A stretch of DNA of 35,662 nt from Verrucomicrobiota bacterium. GTDB taxonomy: Bacteria; Verrucomicrobiota; Verrucomicrobiia; Limisphaerales; JACDHS01. The notes under the pieces were generated by a model. The model saw nothing but the letters and a program-made list of their open reading frames with translations, had not been told where the DNA came from and ran no database searches. Below, piece by piece: positions 5,013 through 33,981 of this stretch; within the stretch, counting starts at the first letter, position 1; every line of letters begins with the position of its first letter. The position numbers and the translations under genes were made by a program. The DNA lies in the NCBI GenBank assembly GCA_013820875.1, contig JACDHS010000044.1, positions 1-35,662 of the forward strand, in the 5' to 3' direction.

Positions 5013-5529
5013 TCTCAAGGCTTTTATAAAGGTGAATCCCACCGAAAACAGCGAGGAACCTGGGAACAGCCCCAAACCGGCATTTTGTCCGCCGGAAAAA
5101 ATGCCGATCTGGCCCTGAATCGGACCTTTTTTCCCGGGTTTAGAGCCACCAAAAAGCTGAAGGGAAAAGTATCCACGAACCGGAAAGTATTGCGAAGCGG
5201 CAACCGGTTTATTTCCCTGTGAAAATTCATCCCCACAACCCGATGCCCGACAAACCCGCAAAACATTGCCTGGGCAACTGACGAAGCCGAACCCAAACAT
5301 CGCCAAAACCCGGCAGCGCCATCCGCGGCAAAGCCCCGCACAAACCGCTTCTCCTCCTTTGCCTGTTTGATGGCCCGAAGCCGGAGAAATAATTGCAATA
5401 CATCCGCAACAACCCAGTCCGACATGGTCCAGGTGAAAACCCCGGAAGAATGGCACTACTTCCACGACATTCGCTGGTGATTTTAAAAAGCCGTGGGAAG
5501 GGGTTCGCGCCAGCGAAACCAAATCCAAG
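5013..5529. other. Long intergenic stretch with no recognisable gene
   Basis: About 500 bases of moderately A-rich sequence. Open frames on both strands are low-complexity and lack start signals or recognisable protein character. Isolated peptide-like fragments such as DMVQVKTPEEWHYFHDIRW (5421-5480, plus strand) could be decayed coding DNA but match no family I know. Confidence 0.35.
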
Positions 5530-5817
5530 AAAAAAACGGTGGGGTTTTGCTGTGCCAAAACCCTGACTTCTGCCTTCCGCAAATCCTCGTGAAGTTTAGT
5601 GTGTGCGTGTTTTGTTTTGAAATTTGTGGATGGCAATTCCTTTGAAACAGCAACACGCACGTACCAGGCTTGGTGAGGATTTGCGGAAGGCAGAAGTCAG
5701 GGTTTTGACAAAACAGAACTATAAATGAGACGAACCGCTCACGCGGTTACGCAAAACCCCACCGGGTTTTGGAGGTGCTCCCGCACCGAAACGCCGACCG
5801 CGACTCGATCCGAATTC
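5530..5817 (+). repeat. Inverted-core repeat element, copy 1
   Basis: A 288-bp element. A left flank (AAAAAAACGGTGGGG...) leads into a perfect 33-bp inverted repeat (5556-5588 with 5675-5707) enclosing an 86-bp core (5589-5674). A right flank of about 110 bp follows, with the hairpin ACCGC-TCAC-GCGGT and CAAAACCCC-ACC-GGGTTTTG type palindromes, ending at GAATTC. The flanks are colinear with copy 2 (11076-11362), but the core is its reverse complement with one mismatch in 86. The core is itself a diverged palindrome. Function unknown; a MITE, REP-like unit or invertible switch are the options. Confidence 0.85.
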
Positions 5818-5819
5818 TG

Positions 5820-5854
5820 AAAAGGGGTCAGTTTGGTGAGGACTGACCCCTTTT
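5820..5854. mobile_element. Minimal MITE (copy C), also a terminator-like hairpin
   Basis: Only the two termini of the AAAAGGGGTCAG family remain: AAAAGGGGTCAGT, loop TTGGTGAGG, ACTGACCCCTTTT. The interior of about 140 bp seen in copies A and B is missing. The 13-bp stem followed by T on one strand and preceded by A on the other would work as a bidirectional intrinsic terminator. It sits about 200 bases beyond the 3' end of the minus-strand gene and abuts the end of inverted-core copy 1. Confidence 0.75.
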
Positions 5855-6055
5855 TTGAAAAATGCAGAGCGCGATTTTCTTCTCATGAGCGAATGGTGGC
5901 CATCCGCAAGGACTCGTTGGCATCCGCGATTGGACCGGGGCCAATCCGTCGCGATGATTTCGTTTAAACGGCAGGTGCGGCTCGCACTCAACTTGGGCAA
6001 AACTTTTGAAATTCAACTCGTCGTGTGGCGGTCTAAAGCTTATCAGTCCCAGCGA

Positions 6056-8158
6056 TTACTCGGATGCAACTTTTACCTTCAGCGATTGATACGCCACCGC
6101 AGGACGACCAAACACATCTACTGCCGTCGCGCGCACACGATACCGACCGGCTTTCTCCACTTTGAAAGTCAGTTCGCGGCCCCGCACCGGAAAGATGGCG
6201 AAATCCGTGATCGGCATGAGGCGCTCGTCCTCGTAAACCTCCCAGTTGACGGTGGGTTGGGTGGTTTCGCCGTGCCAATCGCCTGTGCCCGCCTTCGCAT
6301 CAGCGCGCACCTTCACCCTGCCGCCGGCGGCCGGAATGTCGCCGACCACCTGAACCGAGAGCTGCGGCATTGGGCCGAGGTCAGGACGCTCCACCGTACG
6401 CGGCGCGTCCAACCACTGGTCCGTCTGCCCAGGACGCTCAATGCGGAGACGGCCGTCTTCCCGAACGTAAATCAGCTCGTCGTAACCCTGCGCAGTGAAG
6501 CGCGGTTCGTCCACGGCCACGTCAAACTCAATCCCCGATCGCAGCAGGCGTTCCACTTCCGTGGCGGCGTTGGCCAGCACCTGGCGATACGTCACGCCTT
6601 GTTCATTCACCCGCTCCAGATGCAACCAGTAGATGCGATTCAGTGGGGTCGGAGAGAACGTGTAGCCGTACGGGATGACGACGGCCACCCGGGCCGCCCG
6701 CAGCAGCGCCTGCATGTCGCGCTGGGGATTTCGCCCAAACGCCTGGCGAATCAGGGAGAAATACTGCCGCTGGTATGGATACGGCAGACCGGAGTTGTCG
6801 CCGAGGCCGACCCAACCGGTCCAGGTCCAGAAGTAGGTCGCGCCTTTGTCATAGAAATACGCGACCTTGCCCGAGCGAAGTTTGAAGCCGTCCGGATCGT
6901 ACAGCCCCACGCCCCATTTCTTGTTGAAGTTCCGAGCCGCGCCGCGCATCAACGCCACGCGAATCGCGCAGGAGTTCTCCGTGGTGGGCGGGATGTGCGT
7001 GCCGAAGGCCATGTTGTAGGCCTCGACCATCACGCCGGGTCCGAACATCTTGGTGTCCTGATCCACGATGCCGCCCAAGCCGGGAACGGCCAGTTGATAC
7101 CACGCGTTGTCAAAGAACACCTCCCACGTCGGATAGTCCTCCTCCACGATGGACAGGTTTCCCCGGCCGAACCGGCTGTCAACGCGCACGTCCATAAAGC
7201 TGCGGGTTTCCTCATCCTTGGGACGGAGCGCTTTCCTGACGGTCTTCTGCAAGCGCTCGACCACCTCCGCCGGCTTGCGTGAATCCAGTCCCAGAATCAT
7301 GACGCCGGGCTCGTCAATGTGGTTCCGGTGTCCCCAGTAATTGGGCCGATACAGGTCCGCCGGCCAGTCTGTGAACTTCGTTTGCTGGGTGCTGCGGAAC
7401 ACGGAACTGCGCGTGACCCACTCCGGCGGGGCCTTGCTGGTGTAGAAATTGGCGCCCGCGCGGGCATGGGCCAACAGGTCTTCTGCGGTGTTTGGTTGAT
7501 ACTGATATGTGCCGCCGGGCAACCGATAATGTGGCCGACCGTCCACATCGCGATCCCCCGCAATCCAGCCAATCAACAAGTCCGGATTGAGCCTGACCGT
7601 GGTCCAGTTCGTCGGCGTGGCCAGATTCTTCACCTGCTCAACTGCCGTGCGGCGGAAGAGCCAGCCTTGAAGCAACATCTCCTCGGGCGTTCCGGACACA
7701 GGCGCGCTCCGGTTGGCCCCGCCGGTCTCAGCGTCCTGCGGCCACCCATGTTTCCAGAGCGAGATGCGCGGGAGCATCGCTTGGCCGGTGACCTCGTGAA
7801 TGAAGCTCACGGTATCCGGCCAGTCGGGTTCGCGCCACAAGTAATGGAGCACGATCGGGTCTGCGTCTGGAGTCGGCCATTGGTCCAGCAGCATCCAGAG
7901 TTGGTAGTGCTGGCCATTGAGGCGCGTCCAATTCAAGCCGCACCACTGGAAGCCGCCACGCTCAGGCACCTCCACGCCTGGTCCCAACTGAACTTGAGCC
8001 GAGACCACCGTGAGCCGGTTCTCGCGTTCGAAGGTTGGGCGCTCGGCCGTATCGGCCAGTAATTCATAACTGGCCACCATGCCCGGTTCGCCCAAAGGCG
8101 CAGCTGCGGTATGAAAAGCCAGAGACAGCAATCCCGACAGAAGTGCAAGCTTGCTCAT
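6056..8158 (-). CDS. Large exported protein of unknown family with Ig-like C-terminus
   Basis: About 700 residues. I chose the ATG at 8158 because it opens a clean signal peptide (MSKLALLSGLLSLAFHTAAA); the frame extends 17 codons further upstream with no better start signal. The body is rich in Trp and Tyr (WTWTGWVGLGD, NYWGHRNHIDEP, PYPYQRQYFSLIRQAFGRNP), typical of secreted carbohydrate-active or glycosidase-like proteins, but no catalytic motif identifies a family. The last hundred or so residues (PQLSVQVVGDIPAAGGRVKV through AGRYRVRATAVDVFG) look like a beta-sandwich of the PKD/Ig type. By eye the gene is clearly more G+C-rich than its neighbours and is flanked by mobile repeats, which would fit acquisition by transfer. 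The long antisense frame is a GC-driven shadow. Confidence 0.75.
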   Translation of the reverse strand: MSKLALLSGLLSLAFHTAAAPLGEPGMVASYELLADTAERPTFERENRLTVVSAQVQLGPGVEVPERGGFQWCGLNWTRLNGQHYQLWMLLDQWPTPDADPIVLHYLWREPDWPDTVSFIHEVTGQAMLPRISLWKHGWPQDAETGGANRSAPVSGTPEEMLLQGWLFRRTAVEQVKNLATPTNWTTVRLNPDLLIGWIAGDRDVDGRPHYRLPGGTYQYQPNTAEDLLAHARAGANFYTSKAPPEWVTRSSVFRSTQQTKFTDWPADLYRPNYWGHRNHIDEPGVMILGLDSRKPAEVVERLQKTVRKALRPKDEETRSFMDVRVDSRFGRGNLSIVEEDYPTWEVFFDNAWYQLAVPGLGGIVDQDTKMFGPGVMVEAYNMAFGTHIPPTTENSCAIRVALMRGAARNFNKKWGVGLYDPDGFKLRSGKVAYFYDKGATYFWTWTGWVGLGDNSGLPYPYQRQYFSLIRQAFGRNPQRDMQALLRAARVAVVIPYGYTFSPTPLNRIYWLHLERVNEQGVTYRQVLANAATEVERLLRSGIEFDVAVDEPRFTAQGYDELIYVREDGRLRIERPGQTDQWLDAPRTVERPDLGPMPQLSVQVVGDIPAAGGRVKVRADAKAGTGDWHGETTQPTVNWEVYEDERLMPITDFAIFPVRGRELTFKVEKAGRYRVRATAVDVFGRPAVAYQSLKVKVASE

Positions 8159-8266
8159 TGTCTTGATCGTATGCAATCGGCCCAGAAGTTTCCCGAACTC
8201 GGCAATCATGTTGGCCGTAGTTTAAGCTGCGTGGTGAAAAAGAAGTCAATCTGGTAGTCAAACTCC

Positions 8267-8378
8267 GTGCTCCAACGCAAACTCGGTCACCGCATCGCCT
8301 TTCCTCCGCAAAGCTCGGAAGCTCACGCAGGAGCAAGTGGCGGAAGCGCTCGGCTGTTCGGTTGAGTTCATCAGCTTG
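8267..8378 (+). pseudogene. XRE-family helix-turn-helix regulator remnant
   Basis: From a possible GTG at 8267 the frame reads VLQRKLGHRIAF. After a one-base shift in the CCTC at about 8303 it reads LRKARKLTQEQVAEALGCS then VEFISL. This is the standard first part of an HTH_3 domain: helix 1, TQEQVAEALG as helix 2 and turn, then recognition helix. It stops at 8378 exactly where MITE copy A begins, and no continuation is visible beyond the MITE. Both the frameshift and the interruption would inactivate it. Its original promoter may lie near the start of the divergent minus-strand gene. Confidence 0.7.
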
Positions 8379-8550
8379 AAAAGGGGTCAGTCCTTACTTT
8401 TGACACAAGTTATAAATCGCGCTGAAAGTTTGGCATGCCACCGTTGACGTTGAGGATTGAATATCCAAGAGGATTTATAGGATGCGCAGCAATCCAATGA
8501 CTCAATTCAAACTCAACTCGGATTGGTGTAAATGGTGAGGACCCCTTTTT
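8379..8550 (+). mobile_element. MITE copy A (AAAAGGGGTCAG termini)
   Basis: Starts AAAAGGGGTCAGTCCTTAC and ends GGTGAGGACCCCTTTTT; the right terminus lacks the CTGA of the full inverted repeat. The interior is nearly identical to copy B at 10765-10940. No open frame of note, so non-autonomous. It ends the XRE remnant. Confidence 0.85.
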
Positions 8551-8692
8551 GTGAACGCTGACTCCGGGTGAGTGGCGATGTTGAGCACCCGGTTTCCGCG
8601 CACCGAGAGCATTGTTCTGACCCTCGAAAATCGTAACGATTGTGCAGGCTCTCGCGTATTGTATCCAACAGAACTGAACCCCAAGGACACCC

Positions 8693-10789
8693 ATGTTAAA
8701 AAAACATTCAGTTTCGATGCTATTGCTGGGCGCAGCACTTGCCTTGCAAACCGTGAGCAGCGCCGAAGAGGCGAATTCTGCCAGAGGAAACGGGATTCGC
8801 CAACCGACAGAGAAAATTGCCTTAGGAACAGCGGCCCGCAGTCAAACAGCAGGTGCGATTTCATACGAATGCGATGACTCGTGCCTCGCTCCGGGAACGC
8901 CTGTGCCCGCAGGGAAATACGCCGTGGTCTCGCCGGTGGGCAAACAAACCGTCCAGATGATAGCTCAGGCTCCTCGTCTCGATACTCTGGATGGAAAAAC
9001 GATTGCGGTTGTGGGCGGCAGCTTCATGGCCAGCACCACGCATCCCGAGATCAAGCGGCTAATCGTTGCGAACCACCCGACCGCGAAGGTGATCTTGCTC
9101 AGCGAGATCGGGTCGGCTGGTCCGTTTCCCGGCCCCGGGGTGATCCGGGAGGCGAAAGAGGAATTTCAGAAGAAACTCAAAGAGATGGGGGTGCACGCGG
9201 TGATCTCGGGGAACGGCGGGTGCGGGCTTTGCACGCCGAAGGAAACTGGATCGAGCATCGCGGCTGAGTATATCGGTATTCCAGCGGTGACTGTGGCGGC
9301 TCCGACGTTCGTCAGCCAGGTGTATTCCACGGCGGTTAATCACGGCGTGCCCGCGCCACGCGCAGCCACCTACCCGGGCGCTTTCTCAGCGCACACACCG
9401 GAGGAACTGATCCGGAATACCCGGGCAGTCGTCTGGCCTCAGATCGTCGAAGCGCTGACGAAGCCGATCACCGAGTTGGAGATCGCGGAACGTCGTAAAG
9501 AATCGACCGGAGATCCCAGGGACCGTGTATTCGCCGGCACGATCGATGGGGTGAATCGGTTTTTCACGGAGCAGCGTTGGTCGGACGGACTGCCAATCAT
9601 TCCACCCACAGCCGAACGGGTGGAGGAGTTTCTTAAATACACCGATCAACCCTGGGACCAGGTTGTGGCCGTGCTCCCGATTGCGTATCGGAAGACCTTG
9701 GTCTGGCATGTTGCTGTAAACGGTGTGATGGCAGGATGTCCGCCGGAGTTCATGCCGCTGTTGATCGCCTATACAAAGGCTCTCGGGGACGGAAATTATC
9801 GGCGCACTCTATCCAGCACCCACGCGTGGACGCCATACTGCTGGATCAATGGTCCGGTCGCGCGACAACTCGGCATTGACGCACAGCAAGGTCAGATCAA
9901 CGAGCCGCGAAACACTGCGCTGGGCCGGTTCATCAATTTAGCCATGATGAATCTCGGCGGCTATTACATCAAACAGGACCGGATGGGGACTTTCGGGTAT
10001 CTCATGCCCTGGGCCATGGCGGAGGATGAAACGGCTTGCCTCAAGATTGGTTGGCAACCCTACCACGTGCAGAAAGGTTTCACTTTAAACCAGAGCACTT
10101 TGACCGCGGCTTCCGCTTTGATGTGGGGCAACAATCTCACTCCGGCGTCGCACAATGCCGAGAAGATCATGGAGGTGATGGCATGGGACGCAGTGGAGAA
10201 AGGTCAGTTTGCGACCGGTAGCGGGCCGAGGCTCACGCACCGGACCATGCTGATCACGGAGTATGTGGCCCGCGACCTCGCCGGTCGTTATCCGACCAAG
10301 GAAAAGTTGGAAGAAGCTTTGGTCGCAACCGCGCGACGACCTGCTTATGAGCGGGCGTATGCCAACTACTGGGCCAATCCCGGAAGTGCCTTCAACCCCG
10401 CAAGGTATTCAGTAGATCAACACGTTAAAAAGGTCATCCGGGAAGAGGGCGGCGAACTCACCGCGCCCCCGCCCTGGCTCGAGAAGGTTCCCGGGCAGGA
10501 AGATATCTACACGGTTCCCGTCATGAAGACCGGCATGACTTCTTTTTTAATCACCGGGGACGCGGACAGAAATAAAGTGCAGACGATGCCCGGCGGCAGC
10601 ACCGTCACCGTGGAAATAAAGCTACCAGCCAACTGGGATGAGCTCATGGAGAAGCTCGACTATCGTCCGCTCAAGGAATTCTTCTTTACTGAAAACAGTC
10701 CTGATCGCGAAAAGGAAAATAACCCGCCACCTAGTAAGGATAACAAACAAACGAGGCTGCTCAGAAAAGGGGTCAGTCCTTACTTTTGA
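8693..10789 (+). CDS. UGSC-family (seleno)protein homologue, Cys form, with large C-terminal domain
   Basis: 698 residues, preceded by AAGGAC as ribosome-binding site. MLKKHSVSMLLLGAALALQT looks like an export signal. Residues about 55-260 match the UGSC domain of selenoproteins known from metagenomic surveys: TIAVVGGSFMASTTHPEI, then SGNGGCGLCT, where Cys177-Gly-Leu-Cys180 occupies the place of Sec-Gly-Ser-Cys. The C-terminal 400 residues (DRVFAGTIDGVNRFFTEQRW, DGLPIIPPT, NGVMAGCPPEFMPLL) form a second conserved-looking domain that I know only as an uncharacterised UGSC companion. The reaction is unknown; a thiol redox or reductase role is inferred from CxxC. The last residues, RKGVSPYF and the stop, are encoded by MITE copy B, so the natural C-terminus has been replaced. 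Confidence 0.8.
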   Translation: MLKKHSVSMLLLGAALALQTVSSAEEANSARGNGIRQPTEKIALGTAARSQTAGAISYECDDSCLAPGTPVPAGKYAVVSPVGKQTVQMIAQAPRLDTLDGKTIAVVGGSFMASTTHPEIKRLIVANHPTAKVILLSEIGSAGPFPGPGVIREAKEEFQKKLKEMGVHAVISGNGGCGLCTPKETGSSIAAEYIGIPAVTVAAPTFVSQVYSTAVNHGVPAPRAATYPGAFSAHTPEELIRNTRAVVWPQIVEALTKPITELEIAERRKESTGDPRDRVFAGTIDGVNRFFTEQRWSDGLPIIPPTAERVEEFLKYTDQPWDQVVAVLPIAYRKTLVWHVAVNGVMAGCPPEFMPLLIAYTKALGDGNYRRTLSSTHAWTPYCWINGPVARQLGIDAQQGQINEPRNTALGRFINLAMMNLGGYYIKQDRMGTFGYLMPWAMAEDETACLKIGWQPYHVQKGFTLNQSTLTAASALMWGNNLTPASHNAEKIMEVMAWDAVEKGQFATGSGPRLTHRTMLITEYVARDLAGRYPTKEKLEEALVATARRPAYERAYANYWANPGSAFNPARYSVDQHVKKVIREEGGELTAPPPWLEKVPGQEDIYTVPVMKTGMTSFLITGDADRNKVQTMPGGSTVTVEIKLPANWDELMEKLDYRPLKEFFFTENSPDREKENNPPPSKDNKQTRLLRKGVSPYF

Positions 10790-10940
10790 CACAAGTTATA
10801 AATCGCGCTGAAAGTTTGGGATGCCACCGTTGACGTTGAGGATTGAATATCCAAGAGGAATTTATAGGATGCGCAGCAATCCAATGACTCAATTCAAACT
10901 CAACTCGGATTGGTGTAAATGGTGAGGACTGACCCCTTTT
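10765..10940 (+). mobile_element. MITE copy B (AAAAGGGGTCAG termini), full length
   Basis: A 176-bp element with perfect terminal repeats AAAAGGGGTCAGTCC and GGACTGACCCCTTTT. Its interior matches copy A almost base for base. Its left end overlaps the 3' end of the UGSC gene and supplies that gene's stop codon. Its right end abuts GCGGAAGGCAGAAATTAGGG, a fragment of the inverted repeat of the inverted-core element, so the elements are nested. Confidence 0.88.
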
Positions 10941-10970
10941 TTGCGGAAGGCAGAAATTAGGGCGTCCAAG

Positions 10971-11008
10971 TAAGAACTATAGAGTCGCTGCCCCGGCTGT
11001 GCGGGCTG
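10971..11008 (+). mobile_element. Short ACTATA-hairpin insertion element, copy 2
   Basis: TAAGAACTATAGAGTCG followed by the hairpin CCCG-GCTGTG-CGGG. Head and hairpin match the copies at 4959 and (inverted) 22403. Confidence 0.65.
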
Positions 11009-11075
11009 CAGGAACGCCTCACCGATTCTTGAATGCTTCGCCACTGCGAGCACCGTCATCCCTGCGCCAGCGTTC

Positions 11076-11362
11076 AAAAAAACGGTGGGGTTTTGCTGTG
11101 CCAAAACCCTGACCTTTGCCTTCCGCAAATCCTCACCAAGCCTGGTACGTGCGTGTTGCTGTTTCAAAGCAATTGCCATCCACAAATTTCAAAACAAAAC
11201 ACGCACACACTAAACTTCACGAGAATTTGCGGAAGGCAGAAGTCAGGGTTTTGACAATACGAAGTATAAATGAGACGAACCGCTCACGCGGTAACGCAAA
11301 ACCCCGCCGGGTTTTGGAGGTGCTCCCGCACCGAAACGCCGACCGCGACTCGATCCGAATTC
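11076..11362 (+). repeat. Inverted-core repeat element, copy 2
   Basis: Left inverted repeat 11102-11134, right 11221-11253, enclosing an 86-bp core (11135-11220) that is the reverse complement of the copy 1 core (5589-5674) at 85 of 86 positions. Both flanks keep the copy 1 orientation, including about 110 bp to the right up to GAATTC. The repeats have drifted slightly here (GACCTTTGCC for GACTTCTGCC; GAGAATTT for GAGGATTT). Confidence 0.85.
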
Positions 11363-11448: not shown

Positions 11449-11540
11449 CCCAATGTTGAAACATTGGGCTACTTTCAAATGTTCCTCCGGAACAAAGCAA
11501 GAGCCAGTTGAGAAGCAGTTTTCTATTCCACTGGAAACGG
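11449..11540 (+). repeat. Dispersed palindromic repeat shared with 34059-34128
   Basis: Opens with the hairpin CCCAATGTT-GA-AACATTGGG (11449-11468). CTACTTTCAAATGTTCC then leads into CTCCGGAACAAAGCAAG. From 11469 the sequence is largely the same as the reverse complement of 34059-34128. TGTTCC-TCC-GGAACA is a further internal palindrome. No protein is assigned. Confidence 0.65.
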
Positions 11541-14660: not shown

Positions 14661-17600
14661 ATGGCCGAAAACTTACCCAAAGAGCCCGCTGAGCAGGCGC
14701 CGGGCGCCGCTTCTGTCCTTGGCAGCGCCACGTATGAAATCATACGGCAACGACTGCAATCGCAGGGGAATACTCTGCGCGAACGGATGGCGCAGCTTGA
14801 TGCAAGCCGCCAGGAGGTTTTCGGGAACATCGAGTTCAAACTCCTGCAGGCCGATCGCATCACGACCGCGCACAACTGTGTTCCACAGGATATGGTGCAA
14901 ATTGGGCATGGCCGTTTCCTGTTCGGTTTCAACATCCATTTCGGGCTGAAGAAAGAGATCGAGTTGGCGGATGTTTTTGCGATTTACAACCGTGATGAAG
15001 CAAGCGGCACCTTCAAGGAAGCCGACCTGGAGTTACTGGGAGAGAGTAACTTCCTCACCGATTTCAAACGCCTTTACAACGTTTACGCCAAAGCTTCCTT
15101 CAGTAAGTTTTCGGTCATTGGCCAATCCCTCTACATGGTGTTCCATACCGGGACCAGCGCGAATGACGTGGCTGTTTTCAAATGGGCATTCCAGAACGAT
15201 TCGTTGCGCTATGTGGATGGCCGGGCGGAAAGTGAATATCGCAAAGTCGGATTCCCCTCCCAATATGAATTCCGCTGGCTCACGCCCAATCGCGAGTCAT
15301 TCCGTTACGGGGATCATCCGCACATTTCCATCGAAGATCGTGTGTTCGTGGAATGCGTCGGTGGCGATCTTACGATTAAGGTGGAAGACAACACCGACAC
15401 TGGCGGCGGTATCTACAGCGAGCCAGTGGACGATAAAAATCAAAAGGTGGACGACGCGGAGATTACGTACGCGGTTCTCGACCATTTGATACTGCTGAAG
15501 ATTCGGCCTTACAAAGAGACCAACCCGCGCTTCTTCATTTTCAACGAGAAACTGCAACAGGCCGTGCGGGTGGATTCCATCGGGCAATCATGCGTTCTGT
15601 TGCCGGAAGATCATGGGTTGATTTTTCCGGACGGCTATTATCTCGGCACTGGCGAACTCAAGCAGTTCGACAGCAAAGAAAAAGGGATGACCATCGAACG
15701 AGTCATCCACGCCTCCAACGGTGAAGATTCGCTCTACGTTTTTTACGATCGGCAAACGGCGGAATACGTCCTCATGCCGTATCGTTTGATTGCGCAAAAA
15801 GTTGAAGAACGCATCACGTGCCACGGTTTTTCCCTGTTCCCGAACGGACACCTCGTCTCGTTCCGGAGCGAGGCTGAAGCGCAGAAGCACCACATGATTC
15901 AGCTTCGGCAGACGGCGTTCTGCCAGGCGGGTTATGAACCTGCCGGAAAGAAGGATTCATTTCTCTACCAGGTTGGCAACAAAGACGTCGTTCGTTGCCT
16001 GTCCGAGAGTAACGAAATCCTAACGCTCGTCCGCAAAGAGAATCCTTACGCAGAACTTTACACGGATCTCGTGAAACGTTGCGGGGCGATTCTCGATGCT
16101 TACCCGTGGCTGAATACCGAGCACGGCTTTCAAATCAATGAAGCGCTGAAACAGGTCCGCGAAGTGGCGGATAAGGCGGTGGACGAATTCGACAAGGTGC
16201 GTCGGTTGCAACGTGAAGCGGTGCAACAGGTGCAGGATGTCCGCAAGCGGAGCGAGGAACGCTTTAATGCATTGCGCCGCGCCAGCTTCGATAAGCTGGA
16301 AGATTACGTTCATAACCTGAGTGCCCTGCGTCATCTGCGCGGTGAACTGATCACGCTTAAGGAAGTGCGTTACGTGGACGTGGCGCAACTGGAGGAACTC
16401 GAGAAACAGGTCACGGAACAGACGGATCAACTGGCAAACGACTGTGTTCAATTTCTGCTCAAGCCCGAAGCGCTGGAGCCTTATCGCAAGCAGGCCGCCG
16501 AACAGATGGCTGCAGTGGAGAAAGTCACCAGGACTGCGGAAGGGAAAAAGATCGAGAAGATCGTAGCGGACGCAGGCGGCGAACTTGAGTTGCTGATTGA
16601 GATCGTTAACAGCCTGAAGATCGAGGATGCCACGGAGACGACGCGCATCATTGATGGAATCACCACGATTTACTCGACGCTGAACCAGATCAAAGCAGCG
16701 TTGAAGAAGCATTTAAAAAGTCTGGCCGCCGAGGAAGGGGCTGCTCAGTTCAATGCGCAAATCAAACTGTTAAGCCAGTCCGCCGCCAGCTATCTCGATC
16801 TCTGCGATTCGCCGGCGAAATGCGAGGAGTATCTCAATCGCATCACGGTGCAACTTGAAGAACTCGAAGGCACCTTTGCCGATTTCGAGGAATACACCAT
16901 CCAGCTTTCCGAACGGCGCACGGAACTTTACGAAGCTTTTGAACAACGCAAAGTAGCGTTGATCGAACAGCGCAATCGCAGGGCTAACGCACTGCTGACC
17001 GCCGCCGAGCGTATCCTGAAAGTGATTCATAATCGGTTGGCCGGTTTCAAAACGATTGAGGATATCAACACCTACATGGCCTCCGATCTGATGGCCGCGA
17101 AGGTGCGCGAAACCATCGAGCAATTGCTGGCGATGGAGGATGCCGTAAAGGCCGATGATCTCCAGGGGCGCCTGAAAAGTGTTCAGCAGGAAGCAGTGCG
17201 GCAGTTGAAGGATCGTAACGAACTGTTTGTCGGTGGCGAAAATGTCATCCAGTTTGGAAAACATCGTTTCAACATCAATACGCAACCGCTGGACCTCACG
17301 ATGGTGAACCGCGATGGAGTGCAACACCTCCATCTCACAAGCACGAAGTATTTCGAGGAGATCACAGACGAAGCGTTTCTCGCGACACGCGCGGTCTGGA
17401 ACCAGGAAGTCATTTCGGAAAATCACGACGTTTATCGCGGGGAATATCTTGCCTATAAATTGTTGCAGTCGCTTGAAGCGGAAAATGGATCGGCTGCGGT
17501 TATTGCTGTATCCGAAGATGAACGTCTCGCGTTGCTCCAGAACTTCATGGGCTCACGCTACCAGGAAGGTTACACCAAAGGGATTCATGACCTGGATGCG

Positions 17601-20069
17601 GCGAAGATTTTCCACACGCTGCTTTCCACTCACCTGAATCTTCACCTCGCGCGTTATCATCCAACGGTGCGCGCGTGTGCGATTGTTTTCTGGCATCGCT
17701 TTTGTTCGACCGAAGCTCGCGCCCTCTGGACCGCTAAACTGAAAGGGTTTGGCGAACGGAACAAACTGTTCCCGGGCGATCCCGCTCAGCAGACCTACAT
17801 CGCCGCGCTGCAAAAGCTAATCGCCGCATTTATCGAAGAAACGCCGCTCTATGCGAAGGAACATGCGGAAGCGGCCGGTGAGTATTTATTCCATGAACTG
17901 AGCAGCGGGGATAAATTTGTCGTCAGCTTCGAAGCCGACAAGCTGGTTTCGGACTTTCGCAAACATCTTGTGACCAAAGGGTGCGAAGATGCTTTTGCCA
18001 AAGCGGTTGAATCGCTTTCGGACCATTCGTCGAGCCGGCTGGAATTGATCCGCGACTGGGCACGAGGTTTCCTGCTTTCCCGAGAAGGTCTCGGCACTTA
18101 TCTCGAGGAAGTCGCCGCCCTGCTCTTCTGCGGCGATGAATTAAACCGAAACGTGGTGCGCTCCGAAACGTCCGCGACAATCGAAGGGATGCGCGGCAGT
18201 CATTCGCTGATCGATGGGAACAGCTATCGCTTCGAGTACCTTTCGTTCCAGGATAAATTGCGCCGTTTCGAACACGATGTCGTTCCGCCGTTTGAACGTT
18301 ATCATCAACTCAAACAACAGTTGGTGGAACGCGAACGTCGTCGCCTGCGTCTCGATGAATTTAAGCCGCGCGTGCTGGGCTCCTTCATGCGCAGCCAGCT
18401 TTTGGATGAAGTTTATCTGCCGCTCGTTGGCGATAACCTGGCCAAACAGATCGGTGCCGCAGGAGCAACGAAGCGCACGGACTTGATGGGATTGTTGCTC
18501 CTCATTTCTCCTCCCGGCTACGGCAAGACAACCTTGATGGAATATGTCGCGAGCCGACTCGGCATTGTATTTGTCAAAATCAACGGGCCGGCGCTCGGGC
18601 ACGATGTCACATCATTGGATCCCGAGGAGGCACCGAACGCGGCCGCGCGCGAGGAAGTGCAAAAGCTCAATCTCGCGCTCGAGATGGGAGATAACGTGTT
18701 GATCTGTGTGGATGACATTCAGCACACCAACCCGGAGTTTTTGCAGAAGTTCATTTCCCTCTGCGACGGCCAGCGAAAGATCGAAGGCGTCTGGCGCGGT
18801 AAACCCCGGACCTACGATTTGCGCGGGCGTAAAGTCGTCGTGGTGATGGCCGGTAATCCTTACACCGAGAGCGGCATGAAGTTCAAACTGCCGGACATGC
18901 TCGCGAACCGGGCTGATACCTACAACCTCGGAGACATTCTCGGCGGCAACGCTGATTCGTTCAAATCGAGCTACATCGAGAATGCGGTCACTTCGAACGC
19001 TGTCCTCTCCCAACTGGCCAACAAGAGCCAGAAAGATATCCGCGGCTTCATCCGCATGGCAGAACTAGGGGACCGCGACACCGCTGGTTTTGAAGGAAGC
19101 TATTCTGCGCAGGAAGTGGAAGAGATTCTTTCCGTGGTGAAAAAGTTGGTCGTGATCCGGGATGTGGTTCTGAAGGTGAACCTCGCATACATCCATTCCG
19201 CCGCCCAGGCCGACGAGTTTCGCACCGAACCACCGTTCCGATTGCAAGGTTCCTATCGCAATATGAATCGGCTCACCGAAAAGGTGGTGCCAATCATGAA
19301 CGACGCTGAAGTGCGCGCGCTGCTCCTCGATCATTACCGGGGAGAATCCCAAACGCTCACGACTGGCGCCGAAGCGAATTTTCTTAAGTTTAAAGAAATG
19401 ATGGACTGGGCAACGCCCGAAGAGAAAGAACGTTGGGAAGACATCAAGAAAACCTTCAAACGCAACCAACTCACGCGCGGGGTTGATCAATCGGATGCAG
19501 TGGGTCGCGTGGTGGCACAACTTTCAAGTTTCCAGGCTGGTCTTGAATCCATCCACGGAACCCTCGAAAAGCAACTCACCAAAAAGCAACCGCAGCTCGT
19601 CGTGGATTTTGCACCGCTCCAGCCTAGCATCGAGGCGCTTCGCAACGCTGTCGAAACGCAGGCTGCCAGGTCGAATGGCGATGGTGCGGTGTCGAAGAGT
19701 GAAATCATTGTCTCCGAACAATTCACCGAGGCGATGAATTCGTTGCGCGAAGAACTAAGCCGGGCCATTGCCGCCGATCGCGCCAGCACGGTGGCGGAAC
19801 GTTTGTCGAATGTGCTGCATGAAATGAAAACCATGCACAGCACTTTGGCCACGTTGAAGGATGTTACAGCGCAGCAGCGGAACCATCTTCGCAATGTGGA
19901 AGAACGCCTCGGCGCGCAAGCCAAGGATGGCGTGGTAGAGTTCGCGTTGACCCAGGAGATGCTGCAAAATGAGCAGGCGTTTTTGGAACGTTTTCAACAG
20001 GCGCTCTCCCAGACTGAACAACCGCCAGAAGCGTCAGCAGAAGAAAGCAAACCGAAGAAAAAGAAATAA
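14661..20069 (+). CDS. Giant AAA+ ATPase, DUF3686 'DNA repair ATPase' type
   Basis: 1802 residues. Residues about 30-450 are beta-rich and fit the DUF3686 (PF12458) region. Long coiled coils follow (about 455-880) and a helical region to about 1240. The AAA+ module shows Walker A PPGYGKTTL (Gly1286 region), Walker B VLICVDDIQ with Asp1351 and Asp1352, sensor 1 MAGNP (Asn1399), and LPDMLANRADTY with a candidate arginine finger. The C-terminus has further coiled coil (about 1600-1790) and a lysine-rich tail. The 'DNA repair' label is a database name, not evidence of function. The gene follows the flotillin gene and ends 9 bases before the coiled-coil gene, so I infer a membrane-associated remodelling machine. 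No Shine-Dalgarno is evident at the ATG. Confidence 0.87.
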   Translation: MAENLPKEPAEQAPGAASVLGSATYEIIRQRLQSQGNTLRERMAQLDASRQEVFGNIEFKLLQADRITTAHNCVPQDMVQIGHGRFLFGFNIHFGLKKEIELADVFAIYNRDEASGTFKEADLELLGESNFLTDFKRLYNVYAKASFSKFSVIGQSLYMVFHTGTSANDVAVFKWAFQNDSLRYVDGRAESEYRKVGFPSQYEFRWLTPNRESFRYGDHPHISIEDRVFVECVGGDLTIKVEDNTDTGGGIYSEPVDDKNQKVDDAEITYAVLDHLILLKIRPYKETNPRFFIFNEKLQQAVRVDSIGQSCVLLPEDHGLIFPDGYYLGTGELKQFDSKEKGMTIERVIHASNGEDSLYVFYDRQTAEYVLMPYRLIAQKVEERITCHGFSLFPNGHLVSFRSEAEAQKHHMIQLRQTAFCQAGYEPAGKKDSFLYQVGNKDVVRCLSESNEILTLVRKENPYAELYTDLVKRCGAILDAYPWLNTEHGFQINEALKQVREVADKAVDEFDKVRRLQREAVQQVQDVRKRSEERFNALRRASFDKLEDYVHNLSALRHLRGELITLKEVRYVDVAQLEELEKQVTEQTDQLANDCVQFLLKPEALEPYRKQAAEQMAAVEKVTRTAEGKKIEKIVADAGGELELLIEIVNSLKIEDATETTRIIDGITTIYSTLNQIKAALKKHLKSLAAEEGAAQFNAQIKLLSQSAASYLDLCDSPAKCEEYLNRITVQLEELEGTFADFEEYTIQLSERRTELYEAFEQRKVALIEQRNRRANALLTAAERILKVIHNRLAGFKTIEDINTYMASDLMAAKVRETIEQLLAMEDAVKADDLQGRLKSVQQEAVRQLKDRNELFVGGENVIQFGKHRFNINTQPLDLTMVNRDGVQHLHLTSTKYFEEITDEAFLATRAVWNQEVISENHDVYRGEYLAYKLLQSLEAENGSAAVIAVSEDERLALLQNFMGSRYQEGYTKGIHDLDAAKIFHTLLSTHLNLHLARYHPTVRACAIVFWHRFCSTEARALWTAKLKGFGERNKLFPGDPAQQTYIAALQKLIAAFIEETPLYAKEHAEAAGEYLFHELSSGDKFVVSFEADKLVSDFRKHLVTKGCEDAFAKAVESLSDHSSSRLELIRDWARGFLLSREGLGTYLEEVAALLFCGDELNRNVVRSETSATIEGMRGSHSLIDGNSYRFEYLSFQDKLRRFEHDVVPPFERYHQLKQQLVERERRRLRLDEFKPRVLGSFMRSQLLDEVYLPLVGDNLAKQIGAAGATKRTDLMGLLLLISPPGYGKTTLMEYVASRLGIVFVKINGPALGHDVTSLDPEEAPNAAAREEVQKLNLALEMGDNVLICVDDIQHTNPEFLQKFISLCDGQRKIEGVWRGKPRTYDLRGRKVVVVMAGNPYTESGMKFKLPDMLANRADTYNLGDILGGNADSFKSSYIENAVTSNAVLSQLANKSQKDIRGFIRMAELGDRDTAGFEGSYSAQEVEEILSVVKKLVVIRDVVLKVNLAYIHSAAQADEFRTEPPFRLQGSYRNMNRLTEKVVPIMNDAEVRALLLDHYRGESQTLTTGAEANFLKFKEMMDWATPEEKERWEDIKKTFKRNQLTRGVDQSDAVGRVVAQLSSFQAGLESIHGTLEKQLTKKQPQLVVDFAPLQPSIEALRNAVETQAARSNGDGAVSKSEIIVSEQFTEAMNSLREELSRAIAADRASTVAERLSNVLHEMKTMHSTLATLKDVTAQQRNHLRNVEERLGAQAKDGVVEFALTQEMLQNEQAFLERFQQALSQTEQPPEASAEESKPKKKK

Positions 20070-27672: not shown

Positions 27673-30600
27673 TCAGGGCAGGACGAGGATACGATAGAAT
27701 CTCTGCTCTGCTCCGAAGAAGAATTCAGTCAGCGAAGCGACTGTTCCTTGAGCAACCACATCTTCCAAATCTTCCCAGTTTGTGGGCTGCAAAGTGGTTG
27801 CATATTGGACGCGATAGCTGCGTCCAGGAATGGCAGACCAGTTAATCGTTATTTCATTTTCCAAAAGTTCCACCGTTTGTATGACGGGAGAAGCCAGCAC
27901 AATGACCGCGAACGTTTCGGATGCGGCGAGCGCTGGCGATCCATTGTCTTGCACGCGAACGGTTACCATGTTTGTGCTGCCGACCGGGGCTGCGATGTTT
28001 GGCCAGGTGAAAAGGCCGGAAGATGAATCGATGCCGGCTCCGGAAGGTGGCGTCCCGAGCAGGCTGAACGTGAGAATGTTTGCGGGAATATCATTATCCA
28101 CGGCGGTAATCGGCAGAGTCAAAGATGAACTTGCATAGACGAACTGGTCCGCAATCGGCGACAGCACGGGCACACTGTTCACTTCCGAAACAAAAACAAG
28201 GAACGTCCGTGTTGCGCTTAGATTCGGCAGACCATCATCCGTCACGCGGACGACGATGGTGTTGGTGCCGGGACCTTGTGCTTCCGTTGGCGTCCATGTG
28301 AACGAACCTGTCGCCGGATGGATGCTTGCTCCCTGGGGCGCACTGTCGAGAGTGAAGATCAAGCCATTGGTCGGAAGATCGTTATCCGTTGCACTCGCAA
28401 AAAACGAGAGGGTCGTCAGTTCATCGATTGTCTGATTTGAAATGACGGAGAGCAGGGGAGTTGTGTTCACTTCGTTGACGGTCACCGTAAACGTCCTTGT
28501 CTCATTGATTTCCACGCCATCGGTTGCATTAACCTCAATGATATAAACACCGGGACCTTGCGTTTCAGTTGGCGTCCAGGAGAACACGCCAGTGTCAGGA
28601 TCGATGCTTGCGCCTGCCGGAGCGTTCGTAAGAGTGAAAGCGAGTTGGTTTGTATGATCGGCTTGCGCGGTAAACGTGAGAAGGGAACCTTCATTCACTG
28701 TCTTGTTCGAAATGGGCGAGAGGATGTAATCATCATCGAGAATGGTGCAGGTCGCTTCAGCGCGAGCAAGCCCGGCAAATTGCGGATTGCTGAAGGAGAT
28801 GGAAAAGGTCTCGTGCTCCTCGAAATCCGTGTCTCCTATGATCAAGACCTCAATCGTCTGGTTGGTTTCACCGGGTTGAAACTGAATGACGCCGTTCGTT
28901 TCCACAAAGTCCTCCCCGGCAACCGCTGAACCATTGATAGTTGTGAAATCAACTGTCACAACGTCGGGACTCGGTATGGACAAGATCAACGTGAAAATAG
29001 CTGTGGTGAAACCGGAATGACCTTCCGCCAAAGAAATGTCTTCCACAGAAATGGTCGGCATCGTCTCGAACTCCCAGATCGGACTGCTGGCCTCCCCGAG
29101 TCTTCGTGAAACGATTTTCCAAAAATATCTGGTGAACGGATCAGACACCGGCAAATCCCAGAATAGATTAGTGGTGCTGCCAAGAAATTCCGACACATCA
29201 AGCGAGGCATTCGTGCCGAAATAAACATCGTATGTGGTTTCCGGAGGACTCGCCGTGCGAACGCTGATTTCGTCCAGAAGGACAGTCAGGCCGGGCTCGG
29301 TGGTTTGAGTCACAAATGCAAGCCGCACGGCCGTTCCACGATATTGTGAAACGTTGAACGTCCGCTCTGTCCAATCTGTCGTGGATTGAAAATCCGGGGA
29401 CGTGGAAAAAAGCACCGTGAGCACCGCGTTGTTTGTGTTGCGCAGTTCGACTCGGAACTGGTGGTTGGCAGCGAACGAGCTCGAAACATTATGAATGAGA
29501 TCAGCCCAACTGACCGTCACCACTTCAATGTCAGGAAGTTCGACTTGTCGAACCAGTGTTTGCGTTCCGGCATTCGTCTGAGTTCCAACCAGCGCGAACT
29601 GACCTGCGAAAGGCGCAAACGCAGAGTCACCGTAGCTGCCTGAAAAAACGTTAAAACTATTGTTCCCATCCGTTTGCAGAGTCCAGCCGGCAAGTGTTCC
29701 CGATTCGAAGTTGCCATTAATGAGTTGTTCGATGCCTTCGCCGGGGGATGGATCCCATTCCAGATTTACTGTCACAGGATTGTCCAAAGATAAATGCGCA
29801 GGACGCGGATTACTGACGGGCAGGGGAGTTTCGTCATCTTCAACGGTGATTGTTTTCTGGTCACTGACGAAGTCAGCAGAGTAAGCAGTGACCTGGGCTG
29901 ATTGCGGTCCATCGAGAATTGAATCGTCACCGACGGTAATGTTGAAGGTGACAAATTTACTCCCTGCCGGAATCACAACAACCTCAGGAACAGAAACTTC
30001 AGTCGGCGAATCGGAAGTCAACCCGATGACCAGATCTTCCGGCCATGTTCCAGAAATATGAACACTGCCGGCTTGTGGCAAAGTTCCGTTTCCTTCGCGC
30101 ACTACGGTTGGCAATTTCAGGCGGAGATTGCGATTTTCATCATCGAGAATAAACAGAGTTCCAATTCCTTCCACCCAACCCGCGACATTCGCAGTGACAG
30201 TGACAACCGAGTGGCCGTCAATGACTTCATTATCCAGGACTGTCGCATTGAAACTGGCAAAACTTTCGCCGGCAGGGATTACGACAGAAGAATCAACCGT
30301 CAATCGCGATGGATTCAGTGATTGCAGTTGAACCTCCACATCGGCTGCCGCGGCTGAATCCTGGATGAAAACGGTTCCAGAAATGAGTCCCTCTCCTTCT
30401 GTTATAAAATCCGGGAATATTACAGCTAGAACAGCCTCCTCATTATCATCAATTCTCATTGTGGCTCGCCCATTTTGGTAGCCGCCAGCCACTGCCGTGA
30501 TCGTCACGGGTTGGGTGCCATCCAGAAACTCGTCATCCACGATCGTAATATCGAAGGCAACACTCGTCTGTTCGGCAGGTAAAATGACTTGCAGCGGAAC

Positions 30601-33600
30601 GGTAGCCTGCGAGTTGTCGCTGGAGAACAGGTTGACTGTGAGGTTCGTCGTGAGAGGCTCATGAATGCTGACCTGTCCGTTGACTATTCCATCGGATTCA
30701 GAAACCAAAGCGGGAACCCAGACCTGTATCGCGGGAGCACATTCCGGATAGCTGCTGAAATCACTTTCCACAAAGGACGCTGGAACTCCTGTGCCGCGCG
30801 ATAATCCCACGACTCCATTGCGCGTTTCCAATGCCAGGTAAGTGATGCGAATGCGGCTGTCGAAAAATAATTCAATTTGGAAACTGTTGGTCCTGAACGT
30901 GCCATACTCCGCCACATTTAAATAAGTGACCGCAATACGATTGGTGAATGCTTTCCACGAAACACTGTTCGTCGGTGGCACCAGGTCGGTGAACAAAGCT
31001 GAAATACGCGGAAGCGTGAAATGCGCGTCAGATGTGTCGACATACGTGTCATCGCCGGACCCGAAGGTAATATAACCATTGCTGCCGATAAACAGTTCGA
31101 TGGCCGAATTGCCGTAGAACGACACGTTTGCAGGGAGAGTTATCTTTTCAAATTCATCGTCGCCAAGCGGTAATAATGTGCCGCCGGTGGGATCCGAGTA
31201 AAAATCTGTCACTGTCTCGGCGCAGACCGAATAAAAGCTGTTCGAATCATCCGGCGTGAAGGTGAAGCTCTGGTGGCCCAAATCAAAATCATTCACCTCA
31301 AATAATTCGGTAAAGCTATCTGGTTGGCCGATCCTCAGGATGAAACGGCGGGTTTGCGCAATCTCCGTTGTTTCGTTCATGAACACAACGATGTTGGTGT
31401 AGAGACCACTCGGCAGGTTGCCTGCCACTGATTGTTTGATGGAAATTGCCACGTCAAGGCCGTTACTGGCTGTCAATGTTCCGCCACTGGAAGAAGCATT
31501 CAGCCAACTGGCAAGATCCTGAATGCTCCACGTAATGGTTTGCGGGCTGATGTTGCTTAACGCGTAGGTTTGCAGATTCGGAACGAATGGACCTCCGCTG
31601 GGGCCACTCGAAATCAGGCCTGCTTTGGGCTCAATTGAGAGGCTGTCCGGCATCGCAAATGATTCCACCACACCGATGGTTTTGTTGCTGTCAGGTGAAC
31701 TCGCGAAGAATCCCATCCCACGTTTGGCGAATGCTGCCCAAAGTTCCGGATGATTCGCTCCGTCGTTATTGACTTGATCCGCCTTCAGGATCGCATCCCG
31801 CGACTGCAGAAAGTTTGGATTGGGCGGACAGAGTTTCATGCCGTCGGTGACCAGTTGGAGGATGAGGTTGTTGCCGATGGAGAACCCGTGTTTCGTGATC
31901 AAGTTCGCGCGCGCCTCCCAGAGGGCCGCGCACCAAATCTCCCCCTGGTTATGGACAGCGTCCGCATTGCCGGCAATGGTTGCATTCAACGTGGCGCGCG
32001 GCACGGACGGATAGGTTCCCAATTGATTCTGATCAATGTCCTTGAAGGTGAGCGGGTTCTTCGCAAGGTCGGTGGAGTAGGGGTAACGTCGCGCGCCGTA
32101 GTAGTAATTGAATTCAAATGAAGCCGGGAAAAGTTTTCGCGCCACATACGCTCCAAAAGGATAGCTCGCGTGGACATCATTGGTAGGGCTGCTGAGCAGG
32201 GCGAGCGCATAAAAGTCAGACCATCCTTCTCCCATGCCGCGACTCTGCAATTTCGTCATTCCCATGCCGCCGCCGACGAGACGGTCGCTTAGTCCGTGGG
32301 TGTATTCGTGCAGGACAATCTGGGCATCCAATGCTGGATCCAGGTCCGGTTCGGATCCTGACCGGGTGTAAATAAATAGCTGCATGCGCCCGGGGATACC
32401 ATCCGGCGGCGCGGAAAAGTTCGCGTTGTTGCGGGAAACGCCATTGTAATTGTCCTGTGCATCCGCCTGCACCGCATCTCCGCCGAAACCGCCCTGACTC
32501 GAATTGGTTTGCTGAAAATTCCCTGCCTCCTCGGTGAACCCGAGTTCGTAGAGTTTGTCGTGCATCCAGTTGCACCAGTAAAAGAGTTGGACTACCGAGG
32601 CGTCACCGTAGGTTGCCGGTGATTGCCCCAGATCCAGTGCCGGATCAAAAACCCGGAATGGCGAACCCTCCGGACGTGGCAGATCGGGGAAATCATCACC
32701 AGAACGATCCAGGTGTGCCTCCACATTGTTGCCGATGGTTTCGTTTACCCCCTCATTGATCCAACCGAATGGCGAAGCATTGGTGCTGATCGCGCTGAAA
32801 GTCACCAGTTCACGCGCGACCACGGGCGGTTGATTGGTAATGGGGGACGAATGTCCCGGCGACATCGGCGTGGGGCTCTCGACTGTGAAAACGTTGTAAG
32901 TTACATCGCTGCTATGGCGCGTTAAACCACGGCGAACGAGCACCTCCCCATTCTGCGCATCCACCAGCAACAGGAACATGTCGCTATGTTCCGGACGTGT
33001 TAAAATAACCTGCCAGCAGAGCCGCAACTCATTGGCATGGATCGGCAGCCAAACGAGTTCAGCATACGTTTTACCCGGCAGCTTTGCGGATCGAAACGTC
33101 TGTCGGCGCGGTTCATTCGCTGTCGCACCCAGTGCCTCGATTCCTTCCGCTGCAATCTCTTCCCCCACATTCGCCGCGGCGTTTGCAATCGCGCGTTTTG
33201 CGGATACCGGAGGTTTCGCCAGGAGGTTTTTCCGATCTTTCACTCCGCGATCAGCCGCGTTGACCGGATTGGAAACGAACCGGCTCGAAACATTCACCAG
33301 TTCTTCATCTTTGGTGACGTGAGAGATAAAGAGCGCTTCAAAAATGGGGATGCCATCCAATTCCTGCTGCCAGACAGTGGTTTTCAGTCCGTTATGTTGG
33401 GTGGTGTAATCTCGTTTTACCGTCGCATCCTGCAACGCTTCCGGCCCATGACCGAACAATTCCTTGTGCTCGCGAAGAAAAGCCCTGGTGACCCGGTGCT
33501 CCTCATTTTTACCTGCAATGCCATTGGTGGAAAGACCCCGTCCCACACCGTGTTTGCCGGAAAGAAAGCCGCTCCGTGAGGAAATTGATCTCGGCGCCCC

Positions 33601-33810: not shown

Positions 33811-33981
33811 TATGTGAGTCTTAGCATTGGAGTATAGGTAAATCCACCCCCCTGCGGCAATGTTCTTTATAAGACAACTCCCAGCCCAAAACATTCAACG
33901 GATGCCCCGAAAATCTGCGGGCAGCTCAAGATTCAGTTCCCGGAGCGTTTCTCCTGAACTTCCTCATATCGATTCCGCGCA

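Follow-up and report, generated by a model that had tools for sequence, protein, structure and literature searches.

The question raised by this locus is how two copies of one repeated element in a Verrucomicrobiota bacterium came to have colinear outer flanks and centers that are reverse complements of each other. The window, i.e., the whole 35,662-nucleotide (nt) stretch of DNA that was analyzed (GenBank assembly GCA_013820875.1, contig JACDHS010000044.1), carries copy 1 at positions 5530 to 5817 and copy 2 at positions 11076 to 11362. The left outer flanks (5530 to 5555 and 11076 to 11101) run in the same direction and are identical at 26 of 26 positions, and the right outer flanks (5708 to 5817 and 11254 to 11362), also in the same direction, are 95% identical. 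Between the flanks, the 86-bp core of copy 1 (5589 to 5674) matches the minus strand of the copy 2 core (11135 to 11220) at 85 of 86 positions (98.8%), and the whole inverted match covers 167 nt at 95%. Chance is excluded as the source of this pattern. With moderate confidence, the copies are assigned to palindromic repeats of the kind associated with repetitive extragenic palindrome (REP)-associated tyrosine transposases (RAYTs) and their terminal inverted repeats (TIRs), whose center sometimes inverts by template switching at its arms; copy 1 would be the inverted form.

Both elements consist of nested inverted repeats, and all of their parts are given here on the plus strand except the core of copy 1, which is in minus orientation. 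The arms of copy 1 (5556 to 5588 and 5675 to 5707) form a perfect inverted repeat of 33 bp, those of copy 2 (11102 to 11134 and 11221 to 11253) form an inverted repeat with three differences, and the core is an imperfect palindrome in its own right, as found by inverted-repeat comparison. The initial annotation, which had proposed oppositely oriented cores within colinear flanks, 33-bp inverted repeats around them, and a core that is itself a diverged palindrome, read this anatomy correctly. A 14-bp outer inverted repeat encloses the arms. In copy 1, its left half (CGGTGGGGTTTTGC; 5537 to 5550), which is the first half of the “A” hairpin, pairs in the fold with its right half (GCAAAACCCCACCG; 5751 to 5764); in copy 2, the same left sequence (CGGTGGGGTTTTGC; 11083 to 11096) is combined with a right half that has one mismatch (GCAAAACCCCGCCG; 11296 to 11309). 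A “B” insert occupies the outer-hairpin loop at 5708 to 5750 in copy 1 and is found at 11254 to 11295 in copy 2; in copy 1, its hairpin AACCGC-TCAC-GCGGTT (5733 to 5748) adjoins a CGTC-type tag, a tag class described previously (PMC3733652). Outside the palindrome lies module Y, a REP-like outward GGAG followed by a hairpin (GTGC-TCCC-GCAC in copy 1), at 5771 to 5792 and 11316 to 11337.

A whole-genome search of the 5.7-Mb draft of the host yielded 97 matches, from which copies were extracted as stretches; the set may be incomplete. The family comprises about 30 complete or near-complete copies in this one genome. Core orientation was scored in 28 copies, most of them complete, and additional partial copies end at contig breaks. 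The unit measures 200 to 290 bp and is built of nested palindromes: an outward GGAG-type hairpin, an outer inverted repeat (CGGTGGGG...CCCCACCG) that closes a local hairpin as well, inverted arms of 22 to 33 bp, and a core of approximately 75 to 105 bp with two diverged halves, H1 (ACCAAGCCTGGTACGTGCGTGTT) and H2 (GTGAAGTTTGGTGTGTGCGTGTT). Recurrent modules outside the palindrome are X (GGAGCATCACC-TAG-CGGTGATGC), Y (GGAGGTGC-TTCC-GCACC), Z (CGCTGGCGC...), P, and Q. Modules X and Y are outward hairpins with a GGAG foot, a variant of the REP tag, and the GGAG hairpin of Y occurs at 17 sites. The optional B insert carries a CGTC foot, and both CGTC and GTAG feet are known REP repeat tags (PMC3733652). 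Several copies have a degenerate hairpin tag, and at 6 bp, the CGTC stem is shorter than the 8 to 9 bp reported. Flanks of types A and B are mosaic among copies and the core of copy C109a is mixed (H1/H1), which suggests that halves of elements may have been exchanged or rewritten.

Core orientation can be scored because the two core halves are distinct. Module X adjoins H1 in 9 of 9 copies. Module Y is confined to the H2 side in 11 copies (10 recognized by pattern and C78b by eye), is confined to the H1 side in copy 1, and is present on both sides in C9b; the H2 side is therefore the rule in 11 of the 12 one-sided cases. Since copy 1 is the sole copy with Y beside H1 only, it is the inverted one, with its core in the exceptional orientation relative to Y, and copy 2 has the usual form, with its core in the usual orientation relative to Z and Y. 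Orientation is thus nearly fixed by context in the X/Y/Z subfamily. In the other subfamily, P adjoins H1 in C38, C130, C118 (where P extends into contig C178 through a 127-nt overlap), C101, and C239, and Q adjoins H2 in the first four of these (C38, C130, C118, and C101). Copy C146 has P beside H2, opposite to the other P copies.

Both exceptions locate the breakpoints of inversion. In C146, the core is reversed together with the arm ends that border it, but the outer-hairpin loop variants (CTGTG at the P side and CTGCG at the other) keep the positions that they have in C130 and C118; the breakpoints must therefore fall within approximately 22 to 24 bp of arm. Copies 1 and 2 share the A flank and the B-Y flank despite the flipped core, i.e., the breakpoints are inside the arms. 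Module Q adjoins H1 in three partial copies (C70, C89, and C140), but because the assembly lacks their far sides, each could be either an inversion or a copy with Q at both ends. In total, two inversions are firm and as many as three others are possible, the firm cases amounting to at least two among about 20 copies that can be oriented by outer modules. This family-wide scoring of cores against flanks had been suggested by the initial annotation, which also named an outcome that would refute its reading: a fixed orientation in all other copies together with an assembly error in one of the pair. The first part comes close to what was found, but C146 is a second firm departure from the rule, and in neither case does an assembly error seem to be the cause.

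An assembly artifact at a palindrome is a very improbable source of the flipped core. The assembler evidently struggled with the family, many copies of which are located at contig ends, but copies 1 and 2 are interior to the 35.7-kb contig. Moreover, at several contig breaks elsewhere in the draft, the ends share an overlap of exactly 127 nt, as is typical of de Bruijn assembly at a k of 127. The longest exact match of copy 1 is 58 nt to any other collected copy and 33 nt to its own reverse complement, and the corresponding values for copy 2 are 56 and 14 nt. Because k exceeds the longest shared and self-inverted stretches (58 and 33 nt), a flip of either core by the assembler is unlikely, and this explanation was rejected on what is a strong though indirect argument.

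The single strand of each copy forms one long hairpin (z scores against shuffled sequences of −11.9 for copy 1 and −8.9 for copy 2). In a comparison of 15 distinct outer hairpins, pairing is kept in 98% of pair cells, and both sides have changed in 20 cells, compared with 5.6 in shuffles and ≤5 when the alignment is slid; several of these double changes lack single-step intermediates. Paired changes fit selection on structure and also fit template switching, which has been described as able to rewrite both hairpin sides in one event (PMC8794818).

The family can be linked to a transposase. A fragment of a REP-associated tyrosine transposase lies between copies C9a and C9b (NF047646; E value, 0.007), and a search with this fragment retrieved an intact gene for a 156-amino-acid (aa) RAYT-like HuH transposase at C84 (NF047646; E value, 2.9e-18). 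The C84 gene is bordered by repeats of the same layout, namely, a GGAGC-TTCC-GCTCC hairpin, TTTTT, a GGTGGGG/CCCCACC stem-loop, and then AAAGGCAGAAGTTAGGG-type arms, which give recurrent, though weak, BLAST matches to the window family (E values of 1e-3 to 1.6e-6). The family thus shares three features with RAYT-associated repeats: interspersed multicopy palindromes in one genome, a tagged hairpin, and, in the case of its diverged relatives at C84, a position on both sides of a RAYT/TIRYT gene. It is most likely a nonautonomous relative of elements mobilized by a REP-associated (Y1/HuH) tyrosine transposase, akin to the REP/TIR repeats of REPtrons and TIRtrons, and a RAYT would accordingly be the presumed agent of its mobility. 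One of the two complete C84 palindromes contains, in reverse, the start of the transposase gene within its core (an alignment of approximately 130 nt), and such palindromes may therefore arise as foldback derivatives of a transposase element, which hints at how foldback repeats originate. The genome has further Y1 transposase genes (C54, C145, C73, C27, C239, and C66), but these were rejected as partners, as the repeats that flank them are different.

Template switching would invert a core in a few steps. A single strand would fold into one long hairpin; during replication, the nascent strand would switch to the complementary template inside one arm and copy the core backwards; and a return switch in the other arm would leave an inverted core between unchanged flanks. 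In yeast, template switching between inverted arms reverses spacers and homogenizes the arms with the flanks unchanged (PMC8604942), and the same spacer inversion is a common outcome in chloroplast hairpin loops (PMC2903610). A reversed spacer between arms with unchanged flanks is what copy 1 and C146 display, and template switching accounts for both of them as well as for the mixed H1/H1 core of C109a. The hairpin or foldback route, mentioned as an alternative in the initial annotation, is the best fit to breakpoints inside the arms and to the second, independent case of C146.

Several observations weigh against this explanation or against the transposase link that accompanies it. Reported spacer inversions are much shorter, with changes of 2 to 5 bp in yeast (PMC8604942) and 25 to 27 bp in chloroplasts (PMC2903610). 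Perfect arms occur in copy 1 and C157, and in no case among 20,000 shuffles was arm likeness within copies as high when all copies were included, a comparison to which subfamily structure contributes; within the main subfamily, however, the two arms of a copy do not clearly resemble each other more closely than they resemble arms of other copies (P = 0.14), and arm homogenization was dropped as proof of template switching. The C84 transposase scores 66 bits against a curated NCBIfam cutoff of 80, and the C84 elements resemble the window family over their ends only, as diverged relatives and not as members of the window subfamily. Window-family cores have no similarity to the transposase gene above that of shuffles, and derivation of the core from that gene was rejected. 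Neither target-site evidence nor an empty site was found in 57 genomes of the same order or at 20 loci around a homologous gene, since the relatives lack the region.

Two other routes to a reversed core rely on the same symmetric arms. In ectopic copying, the core would have been written from another family copy in opposite register, the arms pairing either way, with no flip in situ. About 30 interspersed copies with similar arms, the mosaic A/B flanks, and the mixed core of C109a suit this route, which is nonetheless unlikely, given that the nearest relative of the copy 1 core and that of its Y flank are both copy 2, as an in situ flip predicts. This agreement does not settle the matter, as copy 2 might itself have served as the donor. 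RecA-type homologous recombination between the inverted arms of one copy would likewise place breakpoints within arms, which have 22 to 33 bp of identity, but such short arms lie only 86 to 102 bp apart, and synapsis within one duplex is unfavorable at that distance; this route is considered rather improbable. By sequence alone, arm recombination and reversed-register copying are inseparable from template switching. A stronger version of the transposase link, in which palindrome centers are actively inverted in a replication-coupled manner by the transposase or by hairpin processing linked to it, with dozens of loci flipping in living populations, is little more than a long shot.

The initial annotation had also interpreted the core as a small invertible segment. 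The inversion is real, but it is probably not a genetic switch, and an inverton in which a dedicated site-specific recombinase flips the core for regulation has very little likelihood. The core does occur between inverted repeats in both orientations across loci, as expected for an inverton. Such a switch is unlikely because orientation is almost fixed in the X/Y/Z subfamily, because the genes on either side of copy 1 converge on it (ends at 4926 and 6056), and because neither element contains a promoter-like site (judged by the sigma-70 consensus only); a phase-variation promoter was rejected on the last ground. In addition, the arms belong to a long palindrome and not to a conserved short recombination site, and no recombinase domain was detected in the 10 window proteins scanned or in open reading frames (ORFs) overlapping the elements, a search that did not extend to recombinases in the genome as a whole. 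No Pfam domain was above the cutoff in ORFs around the elements. A flipped segment between inverted repeats is therefore not necessarily a phase switch.

The repeat family is new, but the kind of repeat is already known. Like REP and bacterial interspersed mosaic element (BIME) repeats and RAYT-associated TIR families (REPtrons and TIRtrons; PMC3733652, PMC2817692), it is multicopy, species restricted, intergenic, and palindromic, with GGAG/CGTC-type tagged hairpins and a RAYT-like gene between repeats of the same layout (at C84; the gene at C9 is truncated), and joining of REP hairpins to unrelated stem-loops in composites has been reported for those families (PMC3733652, PMC2817692). It differs in its unit of 200 to 290 bp with three nested inverted repeats, in a tag that is mostly GGAG/GGA and not GTAG, and in a transposase below the curated cutoff. 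REPINs (PMC3116915) share two inverted tagged hairpins around a spacer and the potential to form one long single-strand hairpin, whereas the present units are longer and their tagged hairpins point outward from a central palindrome without forming its stem. Template-switch inversions in yeast (PMC8604942) likewise reverse a spacer between inverted repeats, recurrently and with unchanged flanks, but there the spacer is a few base pairs, compared with 86 to 102 bp within a bacterial repeat family here. Minute inversions of chloroplast DNA, e.g., trnH-psbA (PMC2903610), also present a loop between inverted repeats in both orientations among relatives, at one locus between species or individuals as opposed to dispersed copies of one genome. 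Invertons of gut bacteria (PMC11892184) share DNA between inverted repeats in two orientations, unlike the elements here in that the latter have no promoter-like site and the window proteins scanned include no recombinase. Spacer inversion can thus be counted across many natural copies of one bacterial genome, with spacers far longer than those reported from yeast.

No family copies were present in the 57 same-order genomes beyond scraps of 31 to 40 nt, nor was there synteny, the 20 loci around a homologous gene likewise contained no copy, and exact scans of genome contigs and viral contigs gave no match to the family. The closest homologues of a window gene are from Verrucomicrobia subdivision 3, Kiritimatiellae, Lentisphaerae, and others. 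With this family, long nested palindromes are tied to a RAYT-like transposase in a bacterial group that has received little study.

Related repeats and transposase genes were observed elsewhere in the genome. The B insert (AACCGC...GCGGTTCGTC...TATAGTTCTG) occurs as well at locus L090 (1918 to 1972, contig C239), where it occupies the loop of a GTAGTGGCAG-type REP that is unrelated to the family and adjoins a RAYT gene; the insert therefore appears to be a small mobile hairpin that inserts itself into the loops of other hairpins. A repeat bearing module X, up to 700 bp long and composed of degenerate units (TTTACCGGCGGGAAAAGT...), occurs at about 20 other places and often ends right at a palindrome; in the window (5085 to 5304, plus strand), it does not abut the palindrome as elsewhere but stops 225 bp before copy 1. 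A single alanyl-tRNA synthetase gene was found in the genome (C66, 12022 to 14382, locus L091); it is a continuous open frame of 1,133 aa without a stop codon, into which a RAYT-like Y1 transposase is inserted in frame at profile positions of approximately 368 to 375.

Adjoining copy 2, a diverged half-element (10940 to 11046, plus strand) consists of an arm and a B-like piece ending in CTCACCG, matches locus L034 (1097 to 1458), and is a probable relic of the palindrome family. An Acido-Lenti-1 RNA (RF01687), barely over the gathering score, is located at 11449 to 11494, 87 bp past copy 2, and a palindromic pair of a GGGGWSAS-type motif immediately follows copy 1 (5819 to 5857). Direct repeats at 8378 to 8550 and 10764 to 10941, 97% alike over 178 nt, flank a 698-aa UGSC-family gene (8693 to 10789) and start with GAAAAGGGGTCAG, which fits the GGGGWSAS motif of tyrosine-transposase TIRs (PMC3733652). 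The window also contains a tandem array of a 43-bp unit (AAAACAGAACGAAAAAGTAGGTAGGTTGGCCAACGAGGTGTC) at 1739 to 1898, with an inverted partial unit at 1689 to 1735, and two very long ORFs (14661 to 20069, 1,802 aa; 27673 to 33894, 2,073 aa).

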